Origin: Fragilaria crotonensis
Lineage: Eukaryota; Bacillariophyta; Fragilariophyceae; Fragilariales; Fragilariaceae
Length of the DNA stretch: 64,000 nucleotides
Assembly: GCA_022925895.1 (NCBI GenBank)
Contig: JAKSYS010000207.1
Span: forward strand, 1-64,000
Direction of reading: 5' to 3'
Below are positions 873-49,994 of the stretch, one piece after another (position 1 is the first letter of the stretch; each line of letters opens with the position of its first letter). Made by a program: the position numbers and the translations under genes. Below the pieces are notes generated by a model that was not told where the DNA came from, did no database searches, and saw only the letters and a program-made list of their open reading frames with translations.

Positions 873-3395
873 TTAAGACGTACGAAACCCACCACGCAAA
901 TGCCGGTTCATCGTCAATTGCTCGGTCAACCGCGTACTGGGCCAACTCGACGGGATAGGATTCTTAAAACCTTTAACGCGACCCAATCTGTCGATCCGTC
1001 TTTCCACTGAATCAACAATTCCCAGCCTCGAGTGGTTTGTTTCTGGCGTTTGACACCATATTGATTGACATATGTCCCTGACTCTTCGGGATGGCCTCCC
1101 GGGTGGTACGATGGTCAAGTATTTCCTCCAACATCATTTGCCGGTGACCCTCATCATCTACTTGTGCAATGAGATTCTCTGCAATGATATTGGCAGTAAG
1201 CTCCTCAACATGGCCATTTATGAATTCAACTTCATACGCTCGGGAGTCAAGCAAAGGATTGGCGTTCACTGTCCCCACGGGATTACCTTCGTTATCCTTC
1301 AGGCGCTTGATTACCTTTGCATGCACCATCGCACCGTCATCACCCCTCGGAAGTGCCAGTTCCATGCCAATATACTGATCGGTTTCAACCTCTACAAATT
1401 TGTCGTCATTGTCAACTTGATCATCAGCATGCGGGAGCATTGCATCATCAATCACCCTCGTGAATTCTTGGTAGAAGCCTTCATCTTCATTTTCATGATC
1501 AATGATTTTACTTAACTCAACGCCCCGTATCGTGTTGGCAATGTCTGACGATCGAGCTTCAAACGTGGTTTTCACTTTATCTTCATACTCGCTCATTTGT
1601 CTCTTTACTTCGTCCGTAGAACGCTCGTCGTTAGTAAGTCGTTGAACTGTAGTGGCCGAAATTGGAATAGCACTATCAGGAAGAATCCAATAGGACATTA
1701 ACCGTCCTACGCGGTGCGAAACACCTAGCCAACGACCGAGTTGCACCTCACCCAAACCGGCGTTACTACGGAAAGTGACCCAATCGTAAAATTCGAAATC
1801 AAGGTACTCTGATATATCCGGTGTTTCTCCCGTTATTATCTCCAACGGAGTCCTGCCCTCTGCATACTTCGAAAATTGGCACATAGATTCTCAGTCTCGC
1901 AGACCCAAACGAAGCCGTAGTCCCATAATCTTGGTGGCACCTTCTTCTTCAGCATGATACGATACCATCTTTCTTGATCTCGTGGATACTTTGTTCAGCC
2001 GGGTTCTCATTGGGTCGTCTCGGCCCAGACACATGATACTTAATTTCATAACGCCTAATAGCATCCATGAAGCGCGTCTTGGGCCCAGTTTGCACTGACG
2101 CCCCATCAAAGGTCAACTGAGCTGGTACTCCAAAATCACTTATGAATTGGGTAAGTGAATCCCCCACATGGTTGCCGTCGACCTTCATCAGAGGGTAGGC
2201 AACCTTAAATCCACATTTGTGTGAGTAAATCTGGCAACCAACGTTGCCGCGAAGGGACTTGAGTTTTCCATATGCTGTGTCAGTGGCAAATTTACCAGAG
2301 AGCCGTTTCACTCCGAATACACGATCCGCTCGGTAGCGTCTACCAATGGGCAGTATTGCCGATCGCATTCCGCGTTGAGTGGTGACCCTGAGGGTACGTT
2401 GCGCTCGTTTAGGTCCGATTCCAAACCGATCAGCTAACAATTCCGCCGACACTTTGGCGTGACGTTCCGTGCTTACAAAGGTTCGACGAGCTGGGATGTC
2501 TAGGTGTTCGTACACTGTCGTATCGACTTCAGAGGCTTGTTGCAAGCGTTTCGACAACAGCTCACCAACCCGTACAAGTGATGGATCAATTGAATGCAAA
2601 AGAGCGTCATTCGACGTCGCTTCTAAGTACTCTGTAATCGGAGGGAACGAAGGAACAAGTTGCGGTAAAGGTCTTTGCCATGCTGGCATCGTAGTTCCGC
2701 CTTGATGCAACGCTTGTACCATCATGAGGTTGGTGGGATCCCAGGGCGAAGAACTGGTCATCTGGACATGAGCACAATCCTGAAGTTCTTGGGCAGAAGG
2801 AACACGTGTTCGAAAATGGATCTTGGTGCCTGCGGTGTGCAGGGCAAATGAATAGGTCCTCATTAACTTCGATACCTAAATTATGGGTTGCATCATAAGG
2901 ATTATCCCATAGAGGGATGCCATAAGCACGCACTTGGTTGGGATTAATCAGAGAATGATCAAGCGCAGTGCCATAATAAAGAGATTCATGGAATACCAAA
3001 ATGAAGGTGGTGCCTGTCGTAGGATCATCATAAGCCGTAGCACCCGTCACAATAGGAACATTTTCAATAGGCTTGATGGATGAATCGTATGCGTAGACGT
3101 CTGCCGTTCTATAAGTAGATTGCAGAACAACAAAATTTGTGCCAAGACAGCACGTATCCGCATTGGAGTCACATTCGTTATAAGCTGCCGTATCAGTCGG
3201 TGGATCATTGAACGCTGATCGTAACAAGGGTTGCCGACGCAACACGACGGCATGTGGTAACCGCAGCAATACGCCGATTTTGGCGATTCTGGGCTTGTTC
3301 GTTCCGCCCTCCCATGACGGATTGACCTGTCGTAACCTGGCTAACTTGAGTGCGTTGTGAAACGGAAACACTATCAGTAGGGAGGAGACCTGCAT
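873..3395 (-). pseudogene. Copia protease-integrase region of element 1
   Basis: From right to left, the frame 3395-2607 has a protease-like patch reading CDSNADTC, the diatom Copia variant of the D-S/T-G site (around 3140-3180). The frame 2863-1949 holds the integrase core: FATDTAYG (first Asp), LTFDGAS (second Asp) and ENPAEQS (Glu). The frame 1884-1012 carries the integrase C-terminus with the LGRWLG and WILP patches, then the acidic linker towards RT. Frame changes near 2700 and 1920 prevent a continuous polyprotein. All three DDE residues are still readable, so decay is mainly by indels. Confidence 0.88.
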
Positions 3396-4788
3396 AGGGA
3401 CATCAGAGGCTTGTGTTCGGAGCTCTTGAGTTCATTCCGATTTCGTCGTTGCTCGTTGTAAGCTGCACGTTCACGACGAAGTGTATCTTTATCTTCTTGC
3501 TTGAACTTCATACACGTGACGAGGAAAACTAAAAGAGGCATGATACTCAATCTGAGATCCGTCAGTGAGCGTAATGATGCGGCTGTCACTTCGAGTCTTC
3601 TGCACGTTGCCGCGTCCGCTCCGACTTGATCGCCCTCCTCGTCCTCCACGACCATGTCCTCCACGGACAGACTGTCCCCTTGCACCGCGTCCGGAGTTTG
3701 TTTCATTGATGTTACGCCTCACACGGTTCTGAGCTGCGCCCATCTGAGGGGGTGCTTTGGTTAACCATGTTGCGAAAGAGCGAAAGTGCTTGCTCGTAGG
3801 TCATGGTCATTGGCACTCGTGATAATTCAATTTCCAACTGGGCTTTCGTTGGTGTGAGGAAATCTGCTTTGATTTTGTCAATCAGCATCCGTATTTTCAT
3901 CGAGTTCGAATGAACAATCCGGCCTTCTCGTTTCACATATGCATTGAACGCACGCGTCAAGCGCTTCGAATTCGGCCCACCACATGTGTGGGGTTTCTCG
4001 CCAGAATAGAAAAGGCTCTGAATAACCACATCTGCCTCGCGAATATCTATGGCATGAATGCCAACTCCTTCATAATGCTCAACCAGGCGGCGGAATGCTT
4101 CACGCCCGTCGTTCGGTCGCTGAAGGCCTTGAATCTTCGCTTCGGCAGTATCGTTGCCCGCAACAAAGTTCACTAAAAACGTGTGGACTTGTACCGTGTC
4201 AATTGCAATGAGTCCCCGGCCAGAGGGGCCGCAGCAACGTAATCGTCGAGGAAATCATCATGCAATGCTACTGTAGGTTCCTCAATATCGCGGCAAACGT
4301 ACTTCAATGGTACGCCATCGCGACCAGGGATAGATCGAATATAATTCAAAAAAGTTGGTTTCCAATCCTCCCATCTCGTGGCCTCCTTGAACTTCTCTGG
4401 TTTTGCTGCCTCCGCCAGAGTCTTCGAGTCGTTCTTGAATTTCATGAGTGTGATAACGGCGAATAAGATCAGTGACTCGTTCGATCGGAAATGCAGTATC
4501 TGTGGGATCGCGTCCAAGACGAATCTCATCACGCACCCACTGCACAAACGCTTTAATATTCTTGCGAATACCAGGATTCAAACGGATCTGGCCCTGTGCT
4601 GCAGTGAGATCAAAGTAGGTCTTGAAATGTTCGTCAAGTTCTCTAAAGGTGACGTCCATACAGGACGTAAAGGTGTTATCGAAAATGTCACTAGCGATAC
4701 GTTGGGCTTGTGTCTGTTCCATGAACAGAACATTATTATTCACGCCACACGCAATCAACGCGTCGACAACAGTAAATGCTCCTTCCAT
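3374..4788 (-). pseudogene. Copia gag of element 1, broken
   Basis: The N-terminus starts at the ATG at 4788 and runs to about 4400 as a helical gag-like stretch. After a shift it continues in a second frame (4547-4173) and then 4173-3712, which has capsid-like sequence ending FRNMVNQ. The tail (3743-3489) is a glycine/arginine box with repeated RGG-like units, which in Copia Gag usually takes the nucleic-acid-binding role when no CCHC knuckle is present. No CCHC knuckle is seen. At least two frame shifts make the copy non-functional. Confidence 0.8.
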
Positions 4789-4888
4789 TGGCCTATACGT
4801 TGAAAGGGATCTATTTTGTGAGCATATCGAATTCGTACCACTAATGTAGTGGCCAATAATACCTGACGAAAGTCAAGTACATAGATCG

Positions 4889-4925
4889 CATGACCGAAGT
4901 CAGGTAACTCATGACCGAAGTCAGG
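4889..4925. repeat. Two-copy 16-bp direct repeat
   Basis: CATGACCGAAGTCAGG occurs at 4889-4904 and 4910-4925, a period of 21 bases. It lies in the presumed LTR or leader region of element 1 and could be a duplicated regulatory site. Confidence 0.75.
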
Positions 4926-5650
4926 ATTCCGAACGTACAAACATAGTCGAAACTAGTTGATGCCGTTTCGGTCTTGCTCCATTCCATCGCACCCTTCATC
5001 CCTGGGCCTAGGAGCAAAGCTTTGGGTCTGATAAACCAATTAAAAGTAGCTGTAACGGCATTGATAAGATCAACCAAACTTACAAAGATAGGATTCAAGG
5101 AAAAACAATTATATATCATCATGTATCTGCACTGCGATTGTGATTTGCCTTTGTTCATTAATAGGCGTGATCGAACGTGCAATCGTATCAAGACACTAGT
5201 GTCAGTAATGCGAAGACAACGGTACAGTGAGACCGTATCATACCATGATTTATTTGCCAAGTCGCAGCAGGAGTGGAAAAACTAGGCTCACATCTATCCA
5301 TCACCGGATCGATTGTGCCATTCACTCCCTGCAACCAAGTTACGACTAGTTTAAGTCTTTTAATTTCCCCAAGCCCACCCCTGGATCCACCAAACTCCGG
5401 GGAGTTGGAGCTGTATTTACCGCCAGGGAGAATCCCCTGGCCAAGCCAAACACCAGACTCACTAAAGATAGGGTTTCCCCAACTCCAAACCATACGACAA
5501 ATTTAAGTCCAAGGGTGGGCATTGGGCAATTTCCAAACGAGGACGGAGGCGACAACAGACTGGTTTCGAAGCGGCGCAGCAACACACTTCGCAGACGGGA
5601 ACGGACTCCAACGACTTCGAAGCTTACCCCTAGTTGGTGATTTTAGCTAT

Positions 5651-10609: not shown

Positions 10610-10926
10610 TGTGATTTTACTACCTATCGGTACTATCTAACCTGTGATAGACGAATAGGATGTAAAGGGCTTTTAGAAATTTATAAATCGGTGTTAGCCA
10701 ATATTGTGAGTATTGATTGCAGATTATCATTTGATCCAGAATGTGGGGACATTAGTACCTTGACATAATGGTGACGTGATTGCAAGTATAATTCCTACCA
10801 CAATTGATACTGTACCAATGACCGAGTATTGTATCATGAGGTCATAATACGGTAAGTCGATTTGGGTAGCGTTGTCATACTGTGCCTAGCCGCACTGCTG
10901 TCCGGCTGCACCGTCGTATCATCACA
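10610..10926 (-). repeat. 3' LTR of element B
   Basis: Identical by eye to 26584-26900. On the minus strand it is preceded by a short purine-rich GAGGGAG (right of 10926), the expected polypurine tract. Confidence 0.95.
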
Positions 10927-10965
10927 CTCCCTCACGCGTCCAAATTGAGCTCTGCGTTCAGCGCA

Positions 10966-11099
10966 TTACCATCCCATGACAGTGCGTCTGTGCTTTGCCA
11001 ATTGGATCTCGTTGAGAGCCTTTGTCAAGTAGTCGGCTGGCTGTTCTTCCGTTGCGATCGCATGGATACTTATCTCCTGCCGTTCCACGTAGTCTCCAT
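10966..11099 (-). CDS. Element B pol, C-terminal piece beyond the inserted transposon
   Basis: The minus-strand frame ending at the TAA complementary to 10966-10968 encodes the end of the Copia RNase H: a stretch reading EEQPADYLTKAL (the usual ADxxTK block) and a basic tail ending TVMGW. The main pol frame stops at 21066 just after the HHFRH block. Removing 11100-21065 and one AT joins the two parts in frame. Confidence 0.88.
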
Positions 11100-11120
11100 C
11101 AGAAGGTACGTTTTGTTTAG
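11100..11120 (+). repeat. Left terminal inverted repeat of the Plavaka-type unit
   Basis: It pairs with 21045-21065. The right copy differs at two of 21 positions. A target AT lies directly outside. Confidence 0.88.
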
Positions 11121-11631
11121 GTTGTCATTTTTTATTGAGAAATTTGTTGCATATTCACAATATTTGTTTGATATGTATTATTTTATGGCGGTTTCATACA
11201 TTAATACGGCGTCTTTTGTAAGTCTCCGACACTTTAATGTTTGTCTTAACGAACATCTATTGGATGTATAGCATTCGTGTTGTAATGATAACAAATAGAA
11301 GAAAATTTTGTTCAGTATATCACAATTATGATGATCAAAACAACAGTGGATGATTTCTTAACAACATTGAGTTCTTTCATAAAATTGTTTGATTTTCGAT
11401 TACTCAATTGTCGATTCAAAGCCTCAACATTTTCCCGCATCTTCGAAAACATCTTTCGTTTTCTTACCATTTTCCTCGAGGCTATTGAAATAGAATTGTG
11501 AATTCCTGCCAAGTGGTTTCTTTACTCGTCGCAATTCTTATTTTATATCTTCAAGGCATTTGTTTCATTTTACAGCATTTTTTGTGCACATGCAAAATCT
11601 CACAGCTTGTTTCTAAAATTGTTTCTTGAAA
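11121..11631. other. AT-rich leader of the Plavaka-type unit
   Basis: About 500 bases of AT-rich DNA between the left TIR and the transposase ATG. It probably contains the transposase promoter and subterminal transposase-binding sites, but I could not pick out a convincing iterated motif. Confidence 0.4.
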
Positions 11632-14600
11632 ATGGCATCGGGCTCAACTAGTGGTATTACCTCTTCTTCGCGATGTGCTGGTTGTCATCGATTGTTCAAG
11701 AGGCTTTCAACTCACATTGCTCAGAGTCCCATTTGCGAGCAGCTCTACACAACATGCCACGAGTTCATTTCTGGTAGTGTTCTTCGTAACAATGATGCGG
11801 CAACACAATCCTCACCACTAAGGAGAAGCGGACGGCTTTCATCAAATGATTTGTCATCTGTGACTCATCCACTTTCTGGGAATCTTTCTTCGACAAGGAA
11901 GCCGGCAAATGGTCCAGCATTGACTCGAAAGACGAACGTGCAATCGTCAAAAGTGGACGCATCATCAGGTATAGCCAGGACTAGCAAAGAGCGTTGTTTC
12001 GAGGATGGTAAGATTGAAGATGATCGCGAGGATGGATTCCCATCATTAGATGATGCACTTCCTTGGAACAATGAGGGAGAAGATCCTCACGTTGACGGAG
12101 AAGGGGCACCCGATCGATGTGTGCTGAAACTGTATGAGGAACTGCTTGAGTTGCGTTCAAATCCACTTGGCCTCGACCGATTCTCTCGAGAGGAAAAGGT
12201 CCATATTGAATTGCTACACCTTCTCAAGGAGCTAAATGCACCTCTCAATGCATTTACTCGTATTCTTAATTGGTCAGCTCAAGCCAACAGTAATGGACAT
12301 ATATTCCAGGTGGACTGCCAACCATCCCGAGAGAAGGTTGTACAAAAGTTGTATTGCAGGTACAACATGAAGGGATTAATACCAAAGGAGAAGCAGCTCT
12401 ATCTGCCTTATTCAAAGAGGATCGTATCCATGGTGTATTTTGATGCCTCTCAAGTCTTCGCATCTCTCCTCTCGTGCCCTCTTCTGAATCGCGACGAAAA
12501 CTATTTGTTTCATGAACATAAGGATCCTTTTGTTGAACCCTCAAAGTCTGGTGACATTGGAGACATCAATACAGGTCGTTGTTACCGCAGGACGTACAAA
12601 GAACTTGTCAAGAAAAAGGGTGTCGACATGATTTTACCAACAGTCGTAGCAATGGACAAGACACAAGTAGACACATATGGTCGGATGCAGATGGAACCCA
12701 TGACTATATCTCATGGCCTTCTCAAGCATGGTGTTCGATCGCAGCATAGCGCAATGCGAATCCTTGGCTATATATGCCAATTTCCAGCACACAAGCCGAC
12801 AAGCAAAAAAGGTAGAAAGTCTGGGTTTGCTCCCACCATGGCTGCCGATGTTCCTGACGGCACTGTTATTGGTCAAGTTGCACTGAAGTCTATTCCCAAT
12901 GTGAGCTGGTCCACTTACATCCTTAACGAGATGCACATGCAGATCAAGTTCATCCTCGAAGAATCCGGCTTCCTTGACTTGCAACGCAAGGGATTCAATT
13001 GGATGTTACATTACGATGGGAAGGTTTATCCCATTGTACTGCATCCTTACATCCCATTCATAATTGGCGATACTGAGGGCCATGATCGTCTATGTGGGCA
13101 TTATACAGCTCGCTTCAGCTCCGTTAAGCAACTTTGTCGCGTGTGCGAATGTCCCACCCTTGAATCTGATACTCAAAGGCGAAGTATCGCCACAGGAATC
13201 CAGCTGCTATCAACAAGCTGGTCAGATCGGGTGATTTGGAAGGGCTGAAAGCAATGTCGCAGAACTATCTGGTCAACGGCTTTGACAAGGTTCGTTTTGG
13301 TCTCCATAATAAGAGGGGAATATTTGGGGCGTGTCCTGGTGAGATGTTGCACCTCATTTCCTTGGGCTGGTTTAAATACTGTCTCGAAGCGTTCGCAGCT
13401 CAAGCAGGCGGTCGCGACTCCTTGTCCCTGAAATATTATGATCGACTGTGTGCTTCCATTGGTGGGCGATTGTCACGACACAGCGACCGCGATCTCCCAA
13501 GAATGAACTTCCCAAAAGGATTTTCTTCCGGCACCAATTTGATGGGGCACGAGATAACAGGATGCCTGTTGGTGAAGTTGTTTGCAATGCACACAACCAG
13601 ATTCAGACAAATATTCACACCGCCCCTGCCACCCAAAAACGGTGCAAAGAAGTCGAAGAACAAGTCGAAAGTCAAGGACCCAAAGAAGTTGAAAGTTAAG
13701 GACCCAGAACTACAAAGGCTGAGCAACGAGGCACATCTTGCGGATTGGATACTCGTTGTATCATCCCTCCTCCAGTGGCACCAATGGATGAAGCAATCCA
13801 CCATTTCAAAAGCGCAAGTCACAAAATCACATTGTGCAGTGCAGTGGCTGATGCGTCAAATGGCAAGTGTCTCACCGAGAGCGAGTGGAATGGGCAATAA
13901 CACTATCAAGACCCACTTGGTCCTACACCTCAGCGAAGACATCCTCGATCATGGGGTTCCTGAGAACGTTAATAGTGCCTATGCCGAATCAGCACACATA
14001 CCTCTATCAAAGATCACGGCAAGGAACACCCAAAACGTGCGAAGACATTCACAAGGCAGGCGGCACACAGGTACATCGAAAACCTTGCTATTGCCTCCGC
14101 ATGGCAAGACATGCAGCAGGATATCATTCACAAGGGCGGTAGTTCTTTGCGACTGCTGCTGGAAAGTCCGGTGAAGACGATGCACTTCCAACAATGTCTG
14201 GCCGACAATTCACAATCTCACGGAGGGTTGGGGATCCAAGCCCTAGCTTCCGCTGGAATCGGACGTATCCCACAGACAATCCTGGTGGCGACTCCTTGTC
14301 TCGCAGTGCAATGCATTTCCTTGGGCAACATTGTTTGCTGCCCTTTTGACCGATGGGAAGCTTCCATGCTTCACAGAGTTCATTTGCGTCAATGGGCATA
14401 AGTATCGTGCACATCCAAGCATATACGATGGCAAACCTTGGAATGACCATGCAATGGTTGAGTGGCACGGCTTCCAATATCCACTACCGGCATTTATCCA
14501 CACCTTTGTTGACCTTCGTCACTTGCCCTGAGGTGCACGGATTGCCCTTCAAGAATCGGGACAGCCATCAATAAAAGAAGCAGGAGTGTACGCTCTCATA

Positions 14601-15229
14601 CACTCCTTTGATGCAATCGACGAGGAAGTGAGGGAATTCTCCAACACAATGATAGGTCGTTACAAACTAAATCGCAAGGATGCGAAATCAAAGCCAACAT
14701 TGTTCATGGTTAACGTCAACAACCTTGTCGCACCAACCATAGGCATTCGCGATGTCGGAGCGGAGGAGTATTACCTTTCCTTTTCCGGAGGAAAGACGAA
14801 TGGGTAACGTCATGGGACTCGATGATCAACAAGTGTCATGAATCGCGAGATTCACCTTCGTTAGAAAGTGACTACGAGGAGGAAGAGGTTGACGATGAAG
14901 ACAATGTTGATGATGAAGAGGATGTTGACGACGAAGATGATGTTGACAACGAAGATGATGTTGATGATGAAGATGATGTTGATGACAAAGATGATGGTGA
15001 CGACGAAGATGATGTTGATGATGAAGATGATGTTGACGACGAAGATGATGTTGATGACGACGAAGATGATGTTGATGACAAAGAAGGTGATGTTGATGAC
15101 GAAGGTGATGGCGACAACGAGGAGGAGGATGGTGCCAATGATGAATATGACAGCGTCCACAACAAAGAAGATTCTGATGGGGTAGTGGTGCAACCTTACG
15201 CGAACAAGAAGAAGCGTAGGAGGTACTAA
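11632..15229 (+). pseudogene. Plavaka-like transposase, broken by frame shifts
   Basis: ATG at 11632 starts a C2HC finger-like block (CAGCHRLFKRLSTH...C, 11671-11745) as in Plavaka N-termini. The core at about 12640-12720 reads AMDKTQVDTYG, and CRVCECP follows at about 13140, the usual Cys pair of this family. Next come PGEMLHLISLGW and NTIKTHLVLHL, then a C-terminal block with AHPSIYDGKPW. The tail (about 14870-15180) is a long Asp-rich repeat ending in KKKRRR, a likely nuclear signal. Reading needs five one-base shifts near 13178, 14028, 14140, 14330 and 14800, plus an in-frame TGA at 14529-14531. Neither intron sites nor spare sequence explain these. It would cut and paste the element in the nucleus if intact. 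Confidence 0.82.
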
Positions 15230-15313
15230 AGAATCCAACAATAGACAAGCATTTATTCATGAATGACATTTCGAAGCCTGCGATCATCCTGTAGTAGTAA
15301 GTGGCGGACTTCG

Positions 15314-17127
15314 TCATGTACGCCTCTTCTTTGGAATCCTGTAGTTATCAATGTTCTCTTGTTGTGACAAGGGCCCCGCCTCCTTGGCCTCTGGTGCATG
15401 CGCTTGTGGATCATGCTGCTCATGCGCATTGTCGGCACCATCCTCGTCATGGCCACCACGAACGCTACTGTCTCCATTCTGATGATCGCCAACTTCTTTC
15501 TCGCAAGAATCAACAACACCCAACTTGTTGCTTGCCTGACACTGCGCTCTCCCTGCCTTCACTACCTTTTCCTTCGCGGCGGTGAACGTTCCATACAGCT
15601 TGTTACCAAACTTCTTGCGATCGAAACCAACTTTTCCACCGCTGAGTCCGTCAGGCTGGGAGATCGACGTACAGTGTCTGATTACACGACCATCCCAACT
15701 GATTGCCACACCATGTCCAAGTTTAATAGCCAGGCCAGCGAAAGGTTTCCCCTCCAATTGCTCTCCATGTGCCCCCCGCCGGGGTGCCCGTTTGCCGTGG
15801 ACGTTCGGCAGAACAAAATACCAGTTGGCACCACAGCCGGGAATCTCTTCCGTCCAAACACTGTAGCCTTGTGAAGCGTCGTGCACGTCGAAGTGCGACG
15901 AATTACCAAGGTTGACACTCATGTCAATAGTAAATCCTGCGCTACGTTTTTTATGGGGGTCACCTTCCATTGGTGAGATAGGCTGGAGACCAGTATCGGA
16001 TTCCGTGTCCTCATCACAGCCAGCACCTGAGGGAAGAAAACTTCCCCACATCGTGCCAAACAAAGGACCATATTTCGCAGAAGGCGCTCGGGAACCATCA
16101 GATTCGAAGCATAGGGACGCATCGCACCATTAAAGTCAAAGCCAGTACCAATGGCGTGCATTGTGCCAACATCACCACCTTTAGACCTCACACTCCCACC
16201 CTTTCCCAGTCGACGGTTCAACACAGTGTTGTGGAATGTGATGTGGTTCAATGCCCCAAGTAGGTGCGTGTGGTGGTCCCATTCGTCACGATACATAGCA
16301 GATTGTCGGTCGGCTTCGCCATCAACGACCATCAGGTTCCTGATCATAACCACCGACTGCCGATCAGCACAATGACCCACAGTGTCAACATCAATCCAAA
16401 CATCCACGTAGTGATCGAGTGCTGGATCGATGATCCAACACTGTTCAGGGAGCCTAAAGTGGTGGCAACCCATGGCATAGTGGCGGCCATTCATCCTCGC
16501 ACTGTTGGACCTCGCCAGACGGCGGTTATACTCAGCCTTCAAAACACCTTGCGGCCAACAGCCAATATCCTGGCCGTTGAAAATGTCCGGTGGCAGCATG
16601 GGACCATCACTGTCATGACACTGTACTGCCCTATAGATTATGCGATTCTGTCGTCGTGCAATTGTTTTGTGGAGTGAAATCCTCCAAGCCGACACACGGT
16701 TGAAGTCGCGATAGTACTTTGCAGACCATCGGGTATCCGAAAACCTTTCACGTAGCCATCCTTGCCAAATGTGTACGTGACTTCGGCAACTCCTGTAACA
16801 CCACTGCTGGATAGCGGCGTCACTGTTCTCTTCATGCGCAGCCAGCTCATGTCGAGAGGAATGAGTGACTTTGCAACCCCCGCATCACCTTTGCGGCGCT
16901 CCCGTGCACAGTAAAACACGCCACACTGAGGCATAAACAGAATCATTGTCCTGAACTTGTAATCGAATGCATCGTTGAGGTCCTCAGGTTTGTAACACCA
17001 GACCGTTACAACTTTGTCCGGATCAACGGGAAGTTTACTATTATTCTTATCCCCGCCCTTACCCGCAAACAAGCAATCATTGTCGTCGCCTCCATATGGA
17101 TCGTCAGTGACATCGTTCATGTTAACG

Positions 17128-17171
<44 letters not shown>

Positions 17172-17693
17172 GTTGTTGTCATCCTTGTCAGACTTCCCAT
17201 TCGGGGAAAACTCCTTGCTGGTTTTCCTTTTGGGGCGAAGGTGCCGGTTAAGAATGACGTCCATGACGTAAAATTCTTCGAGATAATCAGACATAGTTCC
17301 ATGACTAGGGAACATGTCACCCATCTCACGGAGACGGAAAGGCTCGTCGCATCCAAAAGCATCAGCAATCCATCTGGTGGGAGTGTTGCATATTGTGGGC
17401 TCACCAAGAATCCGATTGTCTTCCTTCGTCACACTCTGCTGAAAGCGCAAAGTAAATGCCTCTCGCTTTGATGGGATCAGAGCCCTAGACAAGAGTGCCA
17501 TCGCCTGATTTTGGGACGGCAGATATTCACGTGGACTACGTCCCTCTGGAACCGAAGTATCCCCATCTCCAGCGGCGTCTTGTTCGTCGTTCGAGAGCCG
17601 CGGCGATGATCCCATGCTCAAAACTGATGCCTGGCAAGGCGATGTTCTCTTCGACTTCGCAATCAGATCACTATCACGTCGATTGGACGACAT
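15314..17693 (-). pseudogene. Transposon-borne gene with a 2OG-Fe(II) dioxygenase-like C-terminus
   Basis: Three minus-strand frames (17693-16638, 16695-15919, 16063-15314) join with one-base shifts near 16670 and 16045. The N-terminal part is unknown and has a 15-residue Asp run (17127-17171). The middle has a conserved-looking WIDPALDHYVDVW-like region rich in His. The C-terminal part shows a double-stranded beta-helix pattern: HFD (15890-15895, candidate H-x-D), WYFVLPNV, GLAIKLGHGVAISWDGR, then RHCTS (distal His, about 15675). This layout fits 2-oxoglutarate/Fe(II) oxygenases and recalls TET/JBP enzymes that oxidise DNA bases, which in fungi ride on KDZ transposons. That assignment is inference; no clear 2OG-binding Arg was seen. 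It converges on the transposase gene. Confidence 0.5.
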
Positions 17694-17709
17694 GGTATTC
17701 CTCTTCCCG

Positions 17710-17820
17710 CTGTATGGCAGGAAAAGGAAAAAATGTCTTGTTCAGAACCTCTCACTGCTGTATGGCAGTGCAACGAGCGCGTGATGGATGAAACAACCTC
17801 CACTCTCCGCTGTATGGCAG
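17710..17820. promoter_or_regulatory. Three iterated CTGTATGGCAG sites before the dioxygenase-like gene
   Basis: CTGTATGGCAG occurs at 17710-17720, 17758-17768 and 17810-17820, spaced 48 and 52 bases. The first lies 17 bases upstream of the minus-strand ATG (17693). Two copies have a purine-rich extension GGA. Regular spacing at a promoter suggests binding sites for a regulator, possibly the transposase or the accessory protein. That is inference. Confidence 0.55.
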
Positions 17821-18756
17821 GAGGAAAGGATGCGACAACAACACAAGAGAACGATCCGACAGTGATAAGCTACTTCTTGCAAAGTGCTTCAAAGAACACA
17901 ATTTGAAAGGTTGTGTACAAACTGTGAGTGATAGAAAGCCATACACTTGCGAATGGCAACGACGTAGTACAGCGTGTACGACACATACTGAAGACTTAAA
18001 AATTACTCTGAGTACTTTACTCTAAGTACATTTTTTTAATGCATACATTTTATAGGTAATGTATACCATGTGACTTGACCCAAAAAGTTCAGGAGCACAG
18101 AAATCACTCTAAGTACTCTCAATACACACGGCAAGGGTGGCGAGCACATGGTCGGTGCATACCAAATAGCTACGCCGTAATGAGTGTGTTTATCACATGA
18201 CCGATATGTGATAAACAACAATGCAGATGTATACTACGCAGAGTAGTATACCAAAGTATTGTAGATAGAAAAATTTAATATGTACTAATGTGATATTATT
18301 TTGTATCGCGAAAAATTTGTGGCGTATGGAAGAACGTATGTAACATTATAATGATTAATATGATATAAAATGTAACGGACGCACCATATTTACAGAAACA
18401 ATGCCAAAACACATGTTACTTGAATAGTATGATTAGTACCCAAATTAGTCGAAGTAACTTGTCACGCGAAACATTATGAAACATCAACTGACAATAAACA
18501 AACTATATTACAATACAGATTGAAGTTTAAGGTGGATTAATTACATAATCACTATACAAGGGTCAATATATGCGATTTCAAAAAGATATGTTCACAAGAT
18601 TGTTCAACAATGCACGACTTCATTCAAACAAGGCAAAAACATACTAAGCACGCAATAGTAGCCTTGCAACATATCGCATAGAATTTGCTGTTCATCAATA
18701 GTTTAATAGTTTGATAAGACTACCACTTCCCACTCTCCTTCTTGTGTACATCCATC
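17821..18756. other. AT-rich spacer between the two divergent accessory genes
   Basis: About 0.9 kb without a coding frame, AT-rich, lying between the start of the minus-strand gene and the start of the plus-strand gene. It most likely holds both promoters. TACTCTAAGTACATT-like and other short AT-rich repeats occur near 18010-18120. No other structure is seen. Confidence 0.45.
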
Positions 18757-20679
18757 ATGGGTCCATTGCCAGCTACGAAAGACAACGGTCCACCGGAGGA
18801 GACAGCTTCGGAAGACGAGGGTCCACCGGAGGAGATGATGATTCCTCCTCGTCGCAAGTCCCCTCGCACCCGTAAAAAAGAAGCGAAGGCGACAAGAGTG
18901 GCGGCGATTGAGGAGGAGTTCCAGAAGACTGCAAGGAGGCAACTGAACCAGAATCCAAAGAACAAGACGAATGAAAAAGGTACGAACAAGACGAATGAAA
19001 AAGGTACGAACAAGACGAATGAAAAAGGTACGAACAAGACGAATGAAAAAAGTAAGAAGAATGTTGTAAGTACTAGTACCAACCAGAATGATGAGGGAAC
19101 CACTGCTGCGGCTCCAATTGATGAGCGAACCGCTGCTGCTGATTCACTTAATACCGACGACAAGAAGAGGAAGAACAAGAACCCGCAGGTAAGCACGAAT
19201 ACTACCAACAAATCGAGTAAGGGCGCAGCAAAAGTGGCAAAACTTGTGAAGAAGACGGTGGCACGTAGGGTGGTGACAAGGCGTAACCCGGCACCACCTG
19301 AAGAAGAGGAAGAGCAAACATCGGATGACGATAAATCATCGGTGGCAGAAATTGTTTTGGTACGTACAGTGGGTACGAAACATAATCCAAAACCACGTGT
19401 AAAGGAAGAGGAAGAAGAAGAGCAAAACTCCGCTGCTAATCATTCACCAGATCCACCACGCTATGTCAATAGGGACGATGTTGATGATGACGAGGAATAT
19501 GAAACTAGCTACCATACTGCTGACCATTCATCATCAGATGATGACGATGACATTCTTGTGGACAATGAAAATGAAGAAGCAGTGGTGGATTGTGATCAGG
19601 AGGATTTGTCAACTTCAAGCGACGAGGAGTACGAAAGGCCAAGGGGGCGTAGGGACAACGAGTATACTACGGGTCATACAGCCAGTAAAATCCCAACGGT
19701 TGCGGTTGTTGCCAAAGCACCAACAAGTGCTGCCGCATCAACTCTGGGACTTGATGGTGAAACGCTCCACATACGCGGGATGTCGCGATCGCAGTCAATT
19801 AAAAATCGGCAAAAACATGTCACTGACCGTGTACGAGTATTTGTCAAATCCGATATCTTCAGGAAGATCAAGTTTATAAACAGTGATGCGAGTTTTCAAC
19901 AGGCAATCAGGTTGGTGATGGATCATGAGAATGTGCCGGAACAGCAGCGTGGTCATTTCCAGATGCTATACGAGAGCGTGTTTAATGAAGCCTTGAACAC
20001 CAAACGAAGTTCTTGTGAGCAATCGGGTGGAAAGATTGTTCGAGAAACCATCGCCAAGTTTAAATTGACTGGAGAGGAATTGTTCACAATGGACGAGCTC
20101 TGTAAGCTGAGAAGAGCCACAACGGAACGCGAGTTGCAAGCTTTCTATTGGTTTTTGGAACATACTTGGAATGCGTGTGCGGAAGGAGGTATTGGGGAAA
20201 GCACAAGACAAGGCAGTTGATTTCGAAGCAAGAGAGCCCGGTGGTCGTGGCAGAATTGTCACAAAAGTGACGAGGCATTTGCGTTACTAATGTTTGAAAA
20301 TTATATTGATAAGTGGAAATCCATGCCTCCTGTTGCTGATGAGGCCGAAGATTCTGATTCAGAGCAAGGACAACGAAAGAAGAAAGCGAAACCTAGACAG
20401 CGAGGAGCATACACACGAACAAAAAGTGGGCACTGCAAATACGGTGGGTGGAGTCATGAGGGAATCGCACGATTCAATGAACTTTACAGCCTTGTGCAGG
20501 AAGACAGGCAATGCACCCAAGCAGAGGCAATGGAGAAGCAATTACTGGCGTTTTGCATGAGTCAGGCAGGTCTAGTGCATGGACGAGATGCACGAGGAGG
20601 AGAACAAGACAATGACACTGCAGTGCCAGCAGCAATGACTGCAACCTTTGTTGAGGCGGCATGGGATTTAGATGATTGA
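18757..20679 (+). pseudogene. Accessory protein of the Plavaka-type unit, one in-frame TGA
   Basis: ATG at 18757 (ATCATGG context) opens a single frame to 20679, interrupted only by TGA at 20218-20220. The first 300 residues are low complexity: acidic and Lys-rich, with four 24-bp tandem repeats (18961-19056) encoding NKTNEKGT, then Glu and Asp runs. The C-terminal part is compact: a helical region around residues 350-480, and after the TGA a segment reading HCKYGGWSHEGIARFNELY that looks conserved and could be a small DNA-binding fold. I do not recognise the family. It may act with the transposase on the element ends, as accessory proteins do in CACTA elements. Confidence 0.55.
18961..19056 (+). 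repeat. Four 24-bp tandem repeats inside the accessory gene
   Basis: Each copy encodes NKTNEKGT; the last copy is slightly diverged (ends K-S-K). The number of copies may vary between element copies. Confidence 0.9.
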
Positions 20680-21044
20680 GAACGACTGTTTTGCTGAACG
20701 ACAAAAGAAAGTAAAGAATCGATAAGATAGTAATACACGGTATCTATGTGCAAGGGATGTTGCGTTCAGAACATATATGGATGACGGTGATGTACCAATT
20801 ATAGTTTGAATTAAACATAATATGATTATGAACCGACTCTTATAAATTGATGTAATTGCTGAGTACGTAACATAAACGTTTTAATCTCAACAAATATGTT
20901 TTGTGCTTGTTTTGTTTGAGACAAATAAATTGCAAATCAACTTTATGAAGCTGTTGCGCAATATTTGTTTTATTCATAACCAAAAATAGTGAAAAGGTAC
21001 TGATCGGTCATAATTTAATGTTTGGAACTAAACATCTAAAAAAA
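20680..21044. other. Right subterminal region of the Plavaka-type unit
   Basis: AT-rich DNA between the accessory gene stop and the right TIR. No coding frame and no clear iterated motif seen. Confidence 0.45.
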
Positions 21045-21065
21045 CTAAACAATACGCACCTTCTG
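21045..21065 (-). repeat. Right terminal inverted repeat of the Plavaka-type unit
   Basis: Reverse complement of 11100-11120 with two differences. A target AT lies at 21066-21067. The stop that ends the main pol frame of element B (21045-21047) is supplied by this TIR. Confidence 0.88.
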
Positions 21066-24000
21066 ATGTCTGAAGTGATGCAATCGTATGTTGAGGTGCT
21101 TCGTTCTTGGACGATATTTATGTACCTTCGCCATTTCCAGTGCGCCACTGTTGTCCTCGAAGACGCGGCAGTGAACTTTGGCCTGCGCGGTGGCGATGGG
21201 ATACCCTCTTGACTTCATCTCTTTCAGAAGTTCCATGATTGGTATGGCGTCCCTGAGCGCGTAGCTGAGTCCTGTGTACTCGCTCTCTGTGGTGGACAGT
21301 GCGATTTCGGTTTGCAACTGGGATTTCCAGAGCAAGGGACATCCCGCATAGTTTATAATATACCCGTGTCGGGAACGTGCAGTGTCTCGGTCGGTCGCTG
21401 CTTCAACTGGATCCCAGTCACCGCAGAAACTCGCGTCCACAAACACCTCGAGATCCTTTCCACTTATCGGATTCAATATTGTCCCTTGATGTCGAGTCCC
21501 TTTCAGATATCTGCCGAGCCACCTAATGGCGTCTCCGTGTTCGCGTTTAGGATTTGAGACGAAGCGTGCGCACTGATGTACAGCAAACGATATGTCACTC
21601 CTTGTCGCCTTTTCCAAGTAGTTGAGTTTACCCACTACGGAACGGTAATTGAATGAGTTGTCGAATGCCGATGAGCCACTGTGCCTTGTGAGTAACTTTG
21701 AAGAGGCCGCTGGGGTTGTCCTTGGTTTGACCGTGTCGTCATTCATCCGAAGGTCATCAAGGATTTGTCCGATCAAGTGAGGTTGAGTCAGATGTATCGT
21801 TCCATCATCCTTGCGCTCGATGTTGACGCCTAGGAAGTCGGCCAGGTCACCCTCTACTGTTATTGACAGTCGTGCCTTGTTCTTCAAGTCTTCAATCACC
21901 CTGTCGATCTCATCTTTGTCTGGTCCGGCCAGAAGACTGTCATCCGTGTAAAGAACATACAGTGTCTTTCCTCGGTAGAAGACACATTCGTCAACCTTGG
22001 ACTGTTTGAACCCCAGGTCGTTGATTAGCTTATCGACGAGGAATTTGTTCCATACACGCCCAGCCTGCTTCTGTCCGTATATGTTCCGATGAATCATGAG
22101 AACATAGTCTCTTGGATCACTGCCATCTTTGAGCTCTACTCCAGATGGTATTTTCATGTACAGTGTTCTTTCTACTGGTGCCTGTGCGAACGCTTGGACG
22201 AAGTCAATTTGTTTCGTGTGCCATCCGTGCACCGCAGTGAGCGTCAGTAACATGCGGACGGAGTTCCAGGAAGCTACTGGTGAGTACGTTTCATTATAGT
22301 GCACTCCATGGCGCATGCGTGATCCGTCGATGTTAAGTCTGGCCTTGTACTTCTTGACTGAACCGGTTTTCGCGTCGCGCTTACGCTTCAGTTGCCATAC
22401 TGCCGGAAGTATGATTTCACCTTGCGGTACCTCCGACTTTGGTATTACGGTAAAGTTGCCGTTTTCGAACTGATCTCTCAGTTCCTTCTCCACTCCCTCT
22501 AGGAACTTGGCCCAATCCTTTTCTTTCATTGCTTCGTGGAAGTAAAGGGTATCGGGGTCCGACACCGCTTTGTATGCGAGGAGCGGGTCATCGTGATCGC
22601 GATCGTCATCGGGGAACATTGCTGCGAAGCAGAACAGTTCGCCCTCAACATCATCGGCGGTTAATGGGGATATCTCCGCCACCATGGCCTCGATCGTTAA
22701 TCGTCGAATCGGCTTCGTCTTTCGACCGGACCGTGTTACTGTTACAGTGTTACGGTCCACAACTTCGCTGTGGCTTCCACTGCCAACTTTCAAAGTTCGA
22801 GACACTCGGTTGTTCTCGTTTGCTGCAGCTGGTTCACTCTGTTGTTGTGACTCCGGAGTACCTGCCTGATTCGTCGATGCCTTTTCCTGCCTTTTCCTTT
22901 TCCTATTCCCTGAGGTGTTGACTCCCTCAGGGCTCCACATCCGTTCGATTGTGGTTTGTCTCTCTGAGCTTTTGTCTTTTTCCGTCAGAGTCTCCCTCTG
23001 AGCGACAAAACCTGCTCTGTTCTGCCAGTTGGATTTCACCGTGATGTCTTTGACGGTTTCGAATGCTGCGTCAAATGCGACATGGAATTGAGGACTTACG
23101 AGCGCCGTTCCCCTATCCAGTACGAGCGCTACGTTCCTTCCGTGGTGAGGTGACGTGCCGATGTATATTCCGACCTTCGATCTGCTTTTCCATTTGTGAA
23201 ATGGTTGCTGGCCCTGAAGGCTGTTGTCCAGCACATATGCTGGACATCCAAACGGTTTCCAATGTTTTGGATTCGATACCACTTTTGTCTTCGTGAATAT
23301 CTCCGTCGGAGATCGTCGTTCCTTATCCTGGAGGCATGGTGTGTTGTTTATTGCTTCGTTCGCGACTCGTACTGCGTACGGCCATAGGTTTGCCGTCACA
23401 CCATCTGGCCACCGTGAGCTTGCATGGATCAGCATCGAGCGAGCCATTTCCTGAAGCTCTCTAATGCGCCTCTCGGCAATGCCATTTTGATGATGTGCAT
23501 TCACACCCGCGAATGTAAGTCCCTGGCCGTCCTTCGCACAGCTGTCAGTCCAAAGTCGTGCTTTGAATATGCCATTGTCGGCGTGATAATTTTCGATTGT
23601 TATGCCGTGTCGCTTTGCATACCGCTCAAAAGCTTTCTTGCCTTCGACAGTTTCCTCTGCCGATGCAGTCTTCTGCAAGTAGACGTAACCCATTCGACTA
23701 AACTGATCGACGTATACTGTCGCATATTTGTATCGTTTGGTCGTGAGAAATCCCGTCATCTGTGCTATCAAACCTGGTGTCGGCGATACCAACTGGTCGA
23801 CGGATACTATTTGTCCGGGTCTCACAGGTGTTCCTTCATCGATGAGGTTCTTTCTGGTCTTGCCTCGCCACGGTCTTGGTGTTGCTTTTGCGTACAGGCA
23901 TGCTGTGCATACTGGTGTTCTGCACTTTGCCAGGCGTCGCGGTCGTATGCCTTGTTCGGCCATTGTTTGAAGCTTTTTCATTGGCACATGGCCATATTGA

Positions 24001-25256
24001 TGGTGTAACATCAACAATTCCGCCATTTCCTCTTTTGGCTGTCGAGTTTCTTCGTCGAGTATTACGTTGGGTGTGCTGACCATATTTGCGGTGGCGTTTT
24101 CTCCCTCTGAGTTTGTCGTGGGCGGACCTTGTAGATTAAAGTCCGTTGGTGACGGCTTGTCGTCATCGCCTTCCGGAGGTCGTTGCCAGAAATGTTGCCA
24201 CGGCAGTGGGGTCGTAACCGGCACCTCATCGTGAGCATCATCGTCGTCATCATCAGAGATGATGCCGCTGGGTAACGCCATCGGTTGTCGACAATGGTCC
24301 GCGTCGTCAATCTCACAACAGAAGGCCGCAAATTGAGAGTACCCGTGCGCCAAGGAGAATGTCGCAACGTTATCGCGTTTTCCGAGAGGCACGTGACGCT
24401 TGCTGGCACCGTCGTTCCAGTACAGGACGCATTCGGTTGCATTCGTGTGCTCCCCGCATGGGCTTTTGTGGTTCCGATTGCTGCCAGTCTGGCTCTGCGC
24501 CCAATGTTGTGGACTGAGCAGCCTTACCTTCCCATCAGGAATGAAGTATGAGTTTGGAATGTCGAACGTGGACTTGCATCCGGCGTCGTCCTCCCAACTC
24601 CACCGTATTGTCCCAACGTGGACATTGGTTGTTCTGGAGCCTCCAAAGCCTTTCACGACTCGATTGCTCGGCTTGAGCTCTCCGATAAAGTCTTCTCTCA
24701 TGTGGGAGATGCATCCCGAGCATCGATTGTCAATCCCGATAAGAGAGGAGTCTGTATCGAAGTGCACCGATCGCTCTGTGGCAATCGCAGTTCTTGCCTG
24801 CATCGCCAACACTGACATAGCGATCACCGCGCTACGGTGTCGATGTGCCTTCAGCGTTGTTCGAAGTCTTTGGCGTGGAGTTCGGCGTGCGTTTGACTTG
24901 AGATTGGACTCTATCCAATCGCCCAGCGCACACGTTGCCGACTCTGTCTTGTTCCACAGGTAAGACCATAACTTGCCTGCGATTGAGATTTTCTTCCGTC
25001 TGTTCTTTCTGACGTACTCATTGTCACTGCTGTATAGCACATGGTGTATCATGATGACGGTGAGTTGAACGGTCTGAATGCTTGACATGATGACCGTGTT
25101 TATGATGGTCCTCCAAATCATCCTCAATGTGTCGGCGGTACGTCGTGTGACGTCTTGGATTGCTGTCGTGCAAGTTTGAACGTAGGGTTGAGGCCAGTTC
25201 AATAATACTAGTATGAGAGTGGTTACCCATGCTAATCGGCTGGCCCACCCGAGGAG
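21066..25256 (-). CDS. pol: Element B Pol: protease, integrase, RT, RNase H
   Basis: The frame continues from the gag TGA without a stop for about 1400 codons. N-terminal hydrophobic stretches precede the protease block DTDSSLIGIDNRCSGC. The integrase has a full HHCC region (HHQYGH...CRTPVCTAC), SVDQLV, YHADNG and QNGIAERR (D, D, E). RT has FVQAFAQAPV and LYTDDSLL. RNase H has VFVDASFCG, TTESEYTGL and VFEDNSG. The last block, after HHFRH, lies beyond the inserted transposon at 10966-11099. There is no frame shift or internal stop, so Pol would have been functional before the insertion. It makes cDNA and integrates it. Confidence 0.95.
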
Positions 25257-29863: not shown

Positions 29864-31979
29864 CTAAAACCCTTTTGAAATATGCCAAAAATGCCAATCT
29901 CCGGAAACTATCATACCCAACCGATCTTGTCGCCCGACGCCGACAATTCAATGCCTTCATGGATAACCTCCGCATCGTTTGTAACATCTCTCCCTGGACA
30001 CGCCAAGTCTTTGATCTTTGGCCCAAACAGATTTCCTACTCCCATCCCTTCATTGGCACTGCAATTTACAATCTCATTTTACACATGTCTGTGATCCCTG
30101 CCAAAAACACATCATTGATGGCCCACCAGATGCCAGAACTGCAATCTTTACTCTCCGCCGACATTGTGCTCCGCTTACTCCAGATCATGTTGAACGCACA
30201 AGAGAAGCCTTTTATTCTATTAAACAAGGCCACAATGAAGTTGCAACCTCCTATTTGAATCGCATCCGAGTTTTGACGCGCGATTGCTACCACGCCGGCA
30301 TTCCCAACACAGACGCAGATCTTATTAAAAGAGCCATTCGCGGTGGAAGTAATCACCATTTTTATGCTGCCTCTTACCAACGTTTTGATGCCGACCTCCG
30401 CAGAGCCGAACTTAACGATGAAGAATTGCCCGCTTTCTCCGAACTTGAAAGCCATCTTTTGAATATTGACGAATCCCTTGGCCTAACTTTGCCATCACAA
30501 AATCAACGCAATTATAACCAACATGCCAATGCTGCCCGTCAACAATCCCATCGCCCTGCCCATCGTCCGACTTTCCAAAAACAGTTCACCCCGCGACAAC
30601 ATCAAGCTCTCAGCTCAATTCTGCGACCTTATACCCAACAAAACAGCAGCAGCAATCGGCCACCAATCAGACCCCAAAGCAACCAAAATCAGCATTCAAA
30701 CCGTCCGAACAATCACCAAAACAATCGTCGCAACGCTCCGCCACCTAGATCGAATCATGGCAACCGACCGCCCTTGCGACCAACTTCATCAAACTCCAAC
30801 AACCAACGTCGACCGCAGAGCAATTCCACCCCATTTCGGCCAAATCCTTCACCCAATAATGCCACCAACATAGTTTGTAACAATTGTGGAAGAACTGGTC
30901 ACTATGCAAGACAATGCCCAACTGCAACTAACAGACCTCAGAACAACAATAACAGAAATGGAGGAAACCCAAGGTCACCAACCAATAATGAGAACACTGC
31001 TCCCAGAAATCAAAGAGCTTATTTTGTCACTGATTCATCTTCACCTCATGCTGAAACAACTCATTACCATCAAGCCTTCCTTGCCTCATTAAACAACAAC
31101 CCTGCCTTCAACAATGGCCCACCAACAATCTGGCCTGACACCAACTTGCCTCAAATGGAAATCAACCCATCACTGACTGACAATGATTTTGTACCCTCCA
31201 TGTCACACTCACCTCCCAGCACTGATGCAATTGAATACTTCCCAGATGATCCCATGTCTGCATATCAGCGCTTTGGACCGCCAGATCTTGATAATTGGCT
31301 CCCTGACAGTGGTGCTACAAGCCACTACACTCCTGTCTTCAGTGATCTCCATGATGTTGAACCCTGCCATGTACCTGTTTCCCTTGCTGATGGAACCACC
31401 AAGATATCCACTTTCAAAGGCACAACTGACTGTTTCTTTACAACCACAGAAGGACAGAAAGCTATCCTTGGTCTTGCGGATGTTTACTACATTGAAGGTC
31501 TTAGCCACCGTCTTCTTTCCCTGACTGCCATCTCTGCCACCCAAAACTTCACAGTCATCATCCAAAACAGAGCAACCACAATCCGCTTTCCCAACAATTC
31601 AACATACACATGGCCAACCATCCTTCAAGAGCTACCCTCTGAACAAGCTTTCTCTATGACTTCCCAACCCAACACAACTTCTGATGACACTCCAAACCCA
31701 CCTGCCATCACTTTTGAGCAACACTTGGACACTTCAACCAATTCAAACCCAGACCAACCCACTGCAACCTTGCCACTTGAGATCACATCCCGTCGCCTTG
31801 CACATCGTAATTTCCGCAATCTTATGACTGGATCCCTTCACCATGTTTGGAATGATCACATTTTGTCACCAGCCACTGACACTCAAACTTGGCCAATCAG
31901 AATTTCAATCAGCCAAAAACGCCAGAAGCAAAGTCCCACTCCGCCAAGGTTCAGAACCATTCCATCAACTTCACCTTGA
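29705..31979 (+). pseudogene. Element A Gag and protease
   Basis: After ORF1 the frame shifts near 29705. Gag capsid sequence follows (PIEDLTKTLLKYAKNA...), with a second shift near 30077, just before CDPCQKHIIDGPPDA. The capsid continues to ELESHLLNIDES, then a Gln/Asn-rich linker and a CCHC knuckle, CNNCGRTGHYARQC (about 30880-30920). The protease has DSGATSHYTP (31310 region), the catalytic DSG. Next is the pre-integrase block RRLAHRNFRNL, and the frame ends after another shift near 31920. Element C's copy of this region helps place the breaks. Confidence 0.85.
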
Positions 31980-33678: not shown

Positions 33679-35003
33679 TCCTGCCACTTTACCTTGCCTA
33701 CCACTTCCCAGAATATGCCAAATACTTTGGAGTCCCACTTCTTCTTGACAAAGGAATCTATGGCCTTGTCTACTCAGGCAAATATTGGAACATTGAATTC
33801 TCTGAATGGCTATACTCTCAAGGATTCATCCAATCCCAAGCAGAACCATCCTATTTTGCTTACTATGACAAACACAACCAATGGCTTCGCCTCCTATTCT
33901 TTGTCGATGACATGCTTTATGTTGGAAGCAATGATTCCATCGAGAAATCTTTCGAAGATTCCGTCCGCAACCGCTTTGACGTGAAATTCCTTGGTCCTGC
34001 ACAATGGTTCCTGCAAATGCGCATCCACCGCCACAAAGATTCCACTTACACTCTAGACCAACACCGATATGTCTTGAACGCTCTCCAACGTTATGACCCG
34101 AATTCCGAATTCCCTGAACGCGAAACTCCCTTCCCACCCGATTACGTCTTCACCAAAGATAACCGCCCTGTCACTGATCATGACAAGTCTATAATTGAGA
34201 AAAGACATTCCCGCCTCCCGTTTCGCTCAGCCGTATGCACCCTACTTTATCTAGCATATAACACACGTGCCGATATCCTTTTTGCAGTCTGCAAACTTGC
34301 AAAAGCCTGCATCTGCCCCGGTGAACTTGACTTCCGCGCCCTTATCTGGTTATTTGGCTATCTCAGACGCCGACCCAGCTATGCTTTGAAATTCTATCCT
34401 GATGGCACTTCTAACCCAATCTATAGTATCTGTGCCCAACACAGCATTCCATACTCTGACCTGACTGTCTTCTCTGATGCCAGCTGGCAAGATTGCCCTG
34501 ACACTGGCAGATCAACTGTTGGATACATGATCTTTCACAATGGTGCCCTCATTGAAGCCAACTCAACAATGCCTACCCCAATTGCAATGTCAACCTCTGA
34601 AGCTGAATACATGGCTGCCTGTTCTGCAACTATGGCTACTGCCCACATCAGAATGCTTTTATATGATATGACATACCTTGGCACTAAACAATGGCGCGAA
34701 TCATCCCAACGTTTACCTACAATCCCATCTGTCCTTATGATTGACAATGAAGCAACTGTTCAAATTGCCAAGAATGGCAAACTAACTCGCAAAACTCGCC
34801 ACATTGAAAGACGCTTTCACTTTGTCCGCCAAGGCCAACAAGATGGTACTCATCAACTCTATTGGATCCCTTGTGACTCTCAACTTGCTGACATCCTAAC
34901 CAAGACTCAGACATCATCCAAGATTGATCCTCACCTTGACAAAATCTTTTGCACACTCCCTGATCACCTACTTTCTCCATCACCAATTTCTACGGAGATC
35001 TGA
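33546..35003 (+). pseudogene. Element A reverse transcriptase and RNase H
   Basis: After the shift near 33575 the frame reads DFIGAYLQAKVIG, GIYGLVYSGKYW and LLFFVDDMLY (the Y/F-x-D-D box), then RNase H with VFSDASWQD, STSEAEYMAA, MIDNEATVQ and CDSQLADILTKT. All catalytic residues are readable. The stop lies at 35001-35003 before the AAGAGGGG tract (35007-35014) and the right LTR. Apart from the shift at its start this is an undamaged domain pair. Confidence 0.9.
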
Positions 35004-45355: not shown

Positions 45356-45486
45356 AGGTAGAGCGGTGACTGAACGGCGTTGATCGGTGTCAACAGGAAG
45401 TGTAGTGTCATCAAATGTTGTTCATCAGGTTCAGAGCCAGGGTCAGGAGGTAGGTTAGAGTTGGAGATTGTTGAGAAGGCTTGTTG

Positions 45487-49899: not shown

Positions 49900-49994
49900 C
49901 ACACAATATTTACTTCTGAAACTCGTAAACACGTTCTGTCCGTCGTCCGTTTTTTACGTAGGTTTTCTTGTACGTTTTGTTGCAACCAACCACC

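Follow-up and report, generated by a model that had tools for sequence, protein, structure and literature searches.

Does a transposon in a diatom bring along its own enzyme for modifying DNA bases? The question is raised by an element in the genome of Fragilaria crotonensis (GenBank assembly GCA_022925895.1), located within positions 1 to 64,000 of contig JAKSYS010000207.1, the stretch of 64,000 nucleotides that we analysed and call the window. A preliminary description, made from the letters of the window, had proposed a Plavaka-type transposon with a gene resembling a 2-oxoglutarate (2OG)/Fe(II) dioxygenase on the strand opposite to the transposase. We find that the element is a Plavaka-lineage DNA transposon of the cut-and-paste kind with PlavakaB-type ends, that its host is a diatom, as the silicon transporters in the genome confirm (PF03842; 19 match rows, best E 4e-193), and that it carries three genes: the transposase, the opposite-strand gene (hereafter the oxygenase-like gene) and a third gene. 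The oxygenase-like gene appears to be a selected part of the element, of long standing and not a recent capture; that it encodes a dioxygenase is plausible, if unproven, on the strength of its conserved residues.

The ends of the element and its transposase lie in the window as follows:

11095–11096, no strand: left copy of the target-site duplication, TC, identical to 21069–21070
11097–11120, plus strand: left terminal inverted repeat (TIR), CATCAGAAGGTACGTTTTGTTTAG, agreeing with the right end at 22 of 24 positions
11617–15229, plus strand: Plavaka transposase with an acidic repeat tail, broken into frames 11617–13248, 13170–14174, 13976–14401, 14247–14531, 14532–14807 and 14714–15229
21045–21068, minus strand: right TIR, reverse complement CATCAGAAGGTGCGTATTGTTTAG, with the same 22/24 agreement with the left TIR
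21069–21070, no strand: right copy of the target-site duplication, TC, identical to the left copy

The whole element thus spans 11097–21068 (9,972 bp), with termini CATCA..TGATG. The TIR-bounded unit had been placed at 11100–21065; the repeats are indeed present, and the ends move outward because the terminal CATC/GATG is part of the element. At 11097 and 21068 the two ends are CATCAGAAGG and CCTTCTGATG, with TIRs of 24 bp, and the exact pattern of the ends, CATCAGAAGGTNCGTNTTG, has 23 matches in the 62-Mb genome, against none for the same pattern written backward. The 23 bases formed by joining the flanks across a single TC are found intact at two other sites in the genome (exact matches in contigs C348 and C722; control, none), from which we conclude that the Plavaka element inserted at the window site. 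It interrupts a minus-strand Ty1/copia gene (RVT_2 match; RNase H position assigned by eye). The Ty1/copia element itself (10900–11096 and 21071–25256, minus strand; RVT_2 E 3.7e-41) is split by the Plavaka element, a nested insertion. Copies with both ends were found in eight contigs, that of the window included (C87, C98, C123, C157, C197, C242, C741 and C872), and range from 7.5 to 14.7 kb. When these eight and a more distant relative in C30 were checked for target-site duplications, a 2-bp duplication agreed in eight of the nine elements, the exception being C741; in C87, where the flanking DNA is repetitive, the match reaches nine bases.

The transposase supports the same assignment. Its frame at 11617–13248 matches the Pfam Plavaka family PF18759 with E 3.2e-7 and 30.3 bits (cut-off 26.3), and in a relative, L001 (contig C529), the transposase is a single frame of 1159 amino acids (aa) with E 1.1e-7 and 31.8 bits. 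The relative L007 scores 30.2 bits and the divergent L004 19.7 bits, the latter under the cut-off. According to Kojima (2025; PMC12730594), PlavakaB ends are CATCA..TGATG with duplications of 2–3 bp, and the motifs C(2)C and H(3-4)H are given for Plavaka. By eye, the C(2)C motif is CRVC in L001, CRIC in L007 and CRAC in L004, and all three carry HLVLH as the H(3-4)H motif. The profile match, the ends, the 2-bp duplication and these motifs together uphold the Plavaka assignment. At least 80 PF18759 match rows occur in the genome, and for 55 of these 80 loci the lists show no oxygenase-like gene up to 6 kb away; other Plavaka groups of the genome may therefore be without the gene. A second Plavaka group is visible as strong PF18759 matches at C872:110523, C140:31359 and C259:25326, among others, which match best at profile positions of about 85–318.

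The oxygenase-like gene and its most conserved part are:

15314–17741, minus strand: oxygenase-like gene, in three overlapping frames (16638–17741, 15919–16884 and 15314–16129)
15530–16200, minus strand: conserved core domain, GDxGxMHxIGTR ... SHFDVHD ... NWYFVLPN ... LxHGVAISWDGRVIRHCTS ... LYGTFTAAK, defined by two alignments and by conservation across 70 loci

All four motifs that had been reported for it (HFD, WYFVLPNV, GVAISWDGR and RHCTS) are present in the order claimed. The window copy is decayed: this gene is spread over three overlapping frames and the transposase over several. Other copies hold the gene in one long stop-to-stop frame, of 747 aa in L001 and, the longest among the copies examined, 1291 aa in L004. 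The latter, at 1265–5137 of its locus in contig C829, represents a divergent subfamily in which the 1291-aa frame has a long C-terminal extension with no Pfam match. When the genome was searched with the 271-aa C-terminal frame, at least 146 match rows resulted, or at least 133 loci once merged. In this search 142 of 299 candidates were scored, and in that for the transposase 80 of 420; both lists are therefore lower bounds.

Is the gene tied to the transposon? The preliminary description had named absence of the gene from all other copies as one outcome that would refute its reading; by coordinates, the gene sits between the two ends in all eight two-ended copies. For a test of neighbours, we used lists holding 134 of the 146 rows for the oxygenase-like gene, the 80 PF18759 rows plus 83 of 92 sequence-search rows for the transposase, and 77 of the 90 match rows that the third gene has in the genome, the rows left out being extra fragments of loci already listed. 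Forty of the 133 oxygenase-like loci have a listed transposase at most 6 kb away. Of these, 39 are tail-to-tail with it, the median gap being 2.4 kb; in 200 random placements the mean is 2.9 and the maximum 9. Within the same distance of the third gene there are 45 of the 133, all but one head-to-head. Overall, 57 loci have a transposase or third gene nearby and 76 have neither in the lists, which may reflect decay, divergence or the limits of the search.

The gene has also diverged in step with its transposase: in a set of nine elements, with transposase identities between 43 and 94%, the identities of the two genes correlate with r 0.93, a value reached by 2 of 5000 permutations. For the ratio of nonsynonymous to synonymous substitution rates (dN/dS), eight pairs below about 95% identity were available; three were saturated and five had finite dS, and in these five the core gave dN/dS of 0.08–0.14, with three of them at a dS of 1.7 or more, near saturation. 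Twenty closer pairs ranged from 0.06 to 1.21 (undefined in three), with a pooled ratio of the corresponding proportions (pN/pS) of 0.22, and a whole-frame version of the test gave dN/dS of 0.08 to 1.17. Presence in 8/8 copies, consistent orientation, co-divergence with the transposase and purifying selection on the core are the grounds on which we regard the gene as a long-standing, selected component of the element.

What the gene encodes was approached through the residues that the family keeps. Conservation was read from 70 of 93 profile rows (coverage >70%; 56 rows distinct), drawn from 86 sequences, and a second core alignment combined the window with 47 of 55 references, eight near-duplicates or sequences with long inserts having been omitted by eye. 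The His and Asp of HxD are invariant (70/70 loci), as is an Asp five residues after that His (H+5; 70/70). A Trp and a Glu downstream of the H+5 Asp, as well as WDGR-x-x-RH-x-TS, are invariant or nearly so. The His of RHCTS is present in 69 of 69 loci (one gap), and that of LxHG in 66 of 70, with Tyr, Asp and, in a pair, Asn in the other four. The resulting HxD ... H triad is conserved at the level of letters. The CcTet-like spacing of the LxHG His makes it a candidate for the distal iron ligand; the distal ligand would most likely be the His of RHCTS, since the LxHG His is replaced in 4/70 loci and the RHCTS His never.

These positions invite comparison with known TET/JBP proteins (hTet2, NgTet1, CcTet and CMD1), with which the family shares HxD and the distal His. 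The iron ligands are given as His345, Asp347 and His397 in CMD1 and as His326, Asp328 and His376 in CcTet, and contact with N4 of 5-methylcytosine (5mC) is made by Asn1387 in hTet2, Asp234 in NgTet1 and Asp350 in CMD1. Asp350 is five residues after His345, so that the family's H+5 Asp occupies the same position as the 5mC contact of CMD1; CcTet has Gly there. The contacts of hTet2 (Asn1387) and NgTet1 (Asp234) are at H+5 as well. There is also a possible likeness in spacing between the family's LxHG His and Arg and the series His326-His376-Arg385 of CcTet: the distance from HxD to the LxHG His is 49–56, mostly 50–51, and that from this His to the Arg is 9 in 17/17. In TET2 (checked in PDB chain 4nm6), the segment GVAVAPTHG-x11-HATT has the same THG-(11)-H spacing as, for example, GVAIKLTHG-x11-HCTS in the family, a likeness that is not a test of homology. 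Three conserved basic residues of the core profile, R156, R159 and K191, are candidates for the contact to the 2OG carboxylate; R156 lies nine residues after the LxHG His, as Arg385 does after His376 in CcTet, although that LxHG His is the one substituted in 4/70 loci. A propensity calculation gives a helix and then several strands for the core, which would fit a beta-helix but goes no further than that. Judged from this pattern of conservation, the core probably binds iron through HxD and the RHCTS His as an oxygenase would.

A number of results weigh against an oxygenase, and against TET/JBP in particular. No oxygenase family was found in Pfam among 19 long members, nor in Pfam, NCBIfam or PHROGs among 48 core members, for which only weak, unrelated names appeared. 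The preliminary description had pointed to Tet_JBP (PF12851) and other 2OG families: PF12851 has no match at E ≤ 1 in the genome and none among the 19 long and 48 core members, so that membership of Tet_JBP by profile is ruled out. PDB sequence searches returned unrelated weak matches. A profile-profile comparison with 11 phage TET proteins scored 15.4, against a shuffled mean of 15.1 and under the 19.5 of the reversed profile, and the TET2 segment scored 0.5 bits against the family profile, with at least 8 of 2000 shuffles higher. AlphaFold models from single sequences were of low confidence (pLDDT 42.6 and 36.6), with strands predicted, and Foldseek with the first of these low-confidence models had no match at E ≤ 0.001. 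By eye, there is no Arg at the TET spacing downstream of the RHCTS His. Finally, shuffling letters among the conserved columns produced HxD...H in 4.9% of trials; this falls to 0.34% when the H+5 residue is added, a residue chosen post hoc, after the literature. A search for relatives in phage records, viral contigs and prokaryote genomes found none of use. The family differs from TET/JBP in having no detectable profile similarity and no identified 2OG-carboxylate Arg. Of the dioxygenase proposal, the conserved HxD and distal His stand and a family match does not, which leaves the assignment at the level of motifs. If the gene represents a separate lineage of DNA-acting iron oxygenases, its co-substrate pocket may be altered, as the usual 2OG Arg is not evident; CMD1, a user of vitamin C, may be compared.

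Our proposal for what the gene does is as follows. Its C-terminal core would be a non-haem Fe(II) oxygenase domain in which the invariant HxD and the distal His hold the iron. It would oxidise a DNA base, in the manner proposed for the TET/JBP enzymes of fungal transposons, probably 5mC set on transposons by host methylases, and new insertions would thereby escape or outlast silencing. The genome has 13 match rows for the cytosine methylase family PF00145. In another diatom, Phaeodactylum, cytosine methylation is confined to transposons (PMC12344493). For the whole of this explanation, a PlavakaB-type element with a selected iron oxygenase, base oxidation and silencing escape, not filed as a member of TET/JBP, we would give a probability of roughly 0.5. 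That the substrate is DNA, and that the enzyme helps the element to avoid silencing by methylation, is argued by analogy, and on this point taken by itself our judgement is evenly balanced.

The closest published parallels are fungal. Kojima (2025; PMC12730594) describes PlavakaB families of two Agaricales, Agaricus bisporus and Gymnopus confluens, that carry a TET/JBP gene, so the general idea is in print for fungi, and the same paper indicates that the association of Plavaka with TET/JBP was already implied by earlier work (its reference 21). The diatom element resembles these in its Plavaka transposase, its 5'-CATCA..TGATG-3' termini, duplications in the range of 2–3 bp and an internal gene of oxygenase type; it differs in its host and in that the carried gene matches neither Tet_JBP nor any 2OG model. 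The PE-type fungal TET/JBP genes of Kojima (2025; PMC12730594) are likewise very diverged oxygenases, found on Plavaka among others and recognised by structure-based comparison, and are set apart by description, having HxE where the present family has HxD. Fungal TET genes of the PU and PE types have moved between transposon superfamilies, whereas the diatom gene has co-diversified with its transposase in the nine elements compared. The KDZ transposons (Kyakuja, Dileera and Zisupton) with TET/JBP genes share the idea of a base-modifying oxygenase borne by a transposon, but their transposase has no similarity to that of Plavaka (Kojima, 2025; PMC12730594), and their ends and duplications are different. 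Among the open-licence PMC papers listed by our searches, judged by title or the start of the abstract, there was no diatom case of a dioxygenase borne by Plavaka or another transposon. The gene family and its diatom host are absent from the literature that we found, and the concept is known in fungi. The suggestion that a Plavaka carrier would be a different lineage with the same idea has to be amended, the pairing of Plavaka with TET/JBP being published for those two fungi. The element is a diatom variant of the fungal design, and its gene, outside assigned families, is possibly a non-haem-iron enzyme.

Among other explanations, the strongest is that the gene encodes a non-enzymatic accessory transposition protein, engaged in binding the ends or in assembling the complex; its conserved His and Asp would then be zinc ligands or structural residues. 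The second protein of CACTA/EnSpm elements is the comparison here. Lock-step divergence with the transposase and presence in 8/8 two-ended copies are what would be expected of an obligatory transposition partner, and the lack of matches to enzyme families agrees with it. However, conservation is concentrated at His, Asp, Arg, Trp and Gly residues, whose order resembles that in the active site of an oxygenase, and some fungal PlavakaB elements do carry a TET/JBP gene (Kojima, 2025; PMC12730594), so we regard such a role as possible, at well short of even odds. A beta-helix Fe(II) oxygenase could also act on something other than DNA, through hydroxylation of protein, RNA or histones, or serve some other end, for example a chromatin change at the donor site. 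With a family-level match to TET/JBP absent, the case for a DNA substrate consists of analogy and one residue, the H+5 Asp; that residue, however, is invariant (70/70) and falls at the base-contacting position of CMD1 and likewise of hTet2 and NgTet1, and we consider a non-DNA substrate unlikely. That a host gene merely happens to lie next to or within the transposon in the window copy has nothing found in its favour and is refuted by the at least 133 loci, the consistent orientation and steady distance near the transposase and the presence in all eight two-ended copies, leaving it a negligible probability.

The remaining gene of the element is:

18718–20679, plus strand: third gene, of no known family, in frames 18718–20220 and 20221–20679

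At E ≤ 1, Pfam has no match for its window frames and none for its counterpart in L001; L007 has one weak, unrelated match (E 0.49). It is possibly a DNA-binding partner. Each of the element's three genes contains acidic stretches of Asp/Glu (14865–15185, 17125–17185 and 19474–19600). The window is crowded with mobile elements: a DDE_Tnp_1_7 transposase and more copia-type fragments are found at 40023–41141 (minus), 30015–35003 (plus), 42811–45421 (minus) and 48291–50018 (minus). Open frames of 831–933 aa with no Pfam match at E ≤ 0.001 lie at 49962–52763 (plus), 55294–57789 (plus) and 58837–61350 (minus). Elsewhere in the genome, at C97:29749–33762, three silicon transporter matches share what is listed as a single 1456-aa open frame and apparently represent a triple transporter formed by fusion.

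Even if the product is not an oxygenase, a family of at least 133 loci under purifying selection and with no recognised domain merits a structure. More tentatively, the gene could represent an old line of DNA-acting iron oxygenases in its own right, one that lies outside TET/JBP or at its extreme edge and is locked to the transposase through deep divergence, which would make it an algal counter-silencing enzyme parallel to the TET+ transposons of fungi. If the gene does encode a base-modifying oxygenase, then Plavaka elements on two distant branches of the eukaryotes, fungi and a diatom, would share the strategy of carrying an enzyme that erases or modifies the mark used by the host for silencing.

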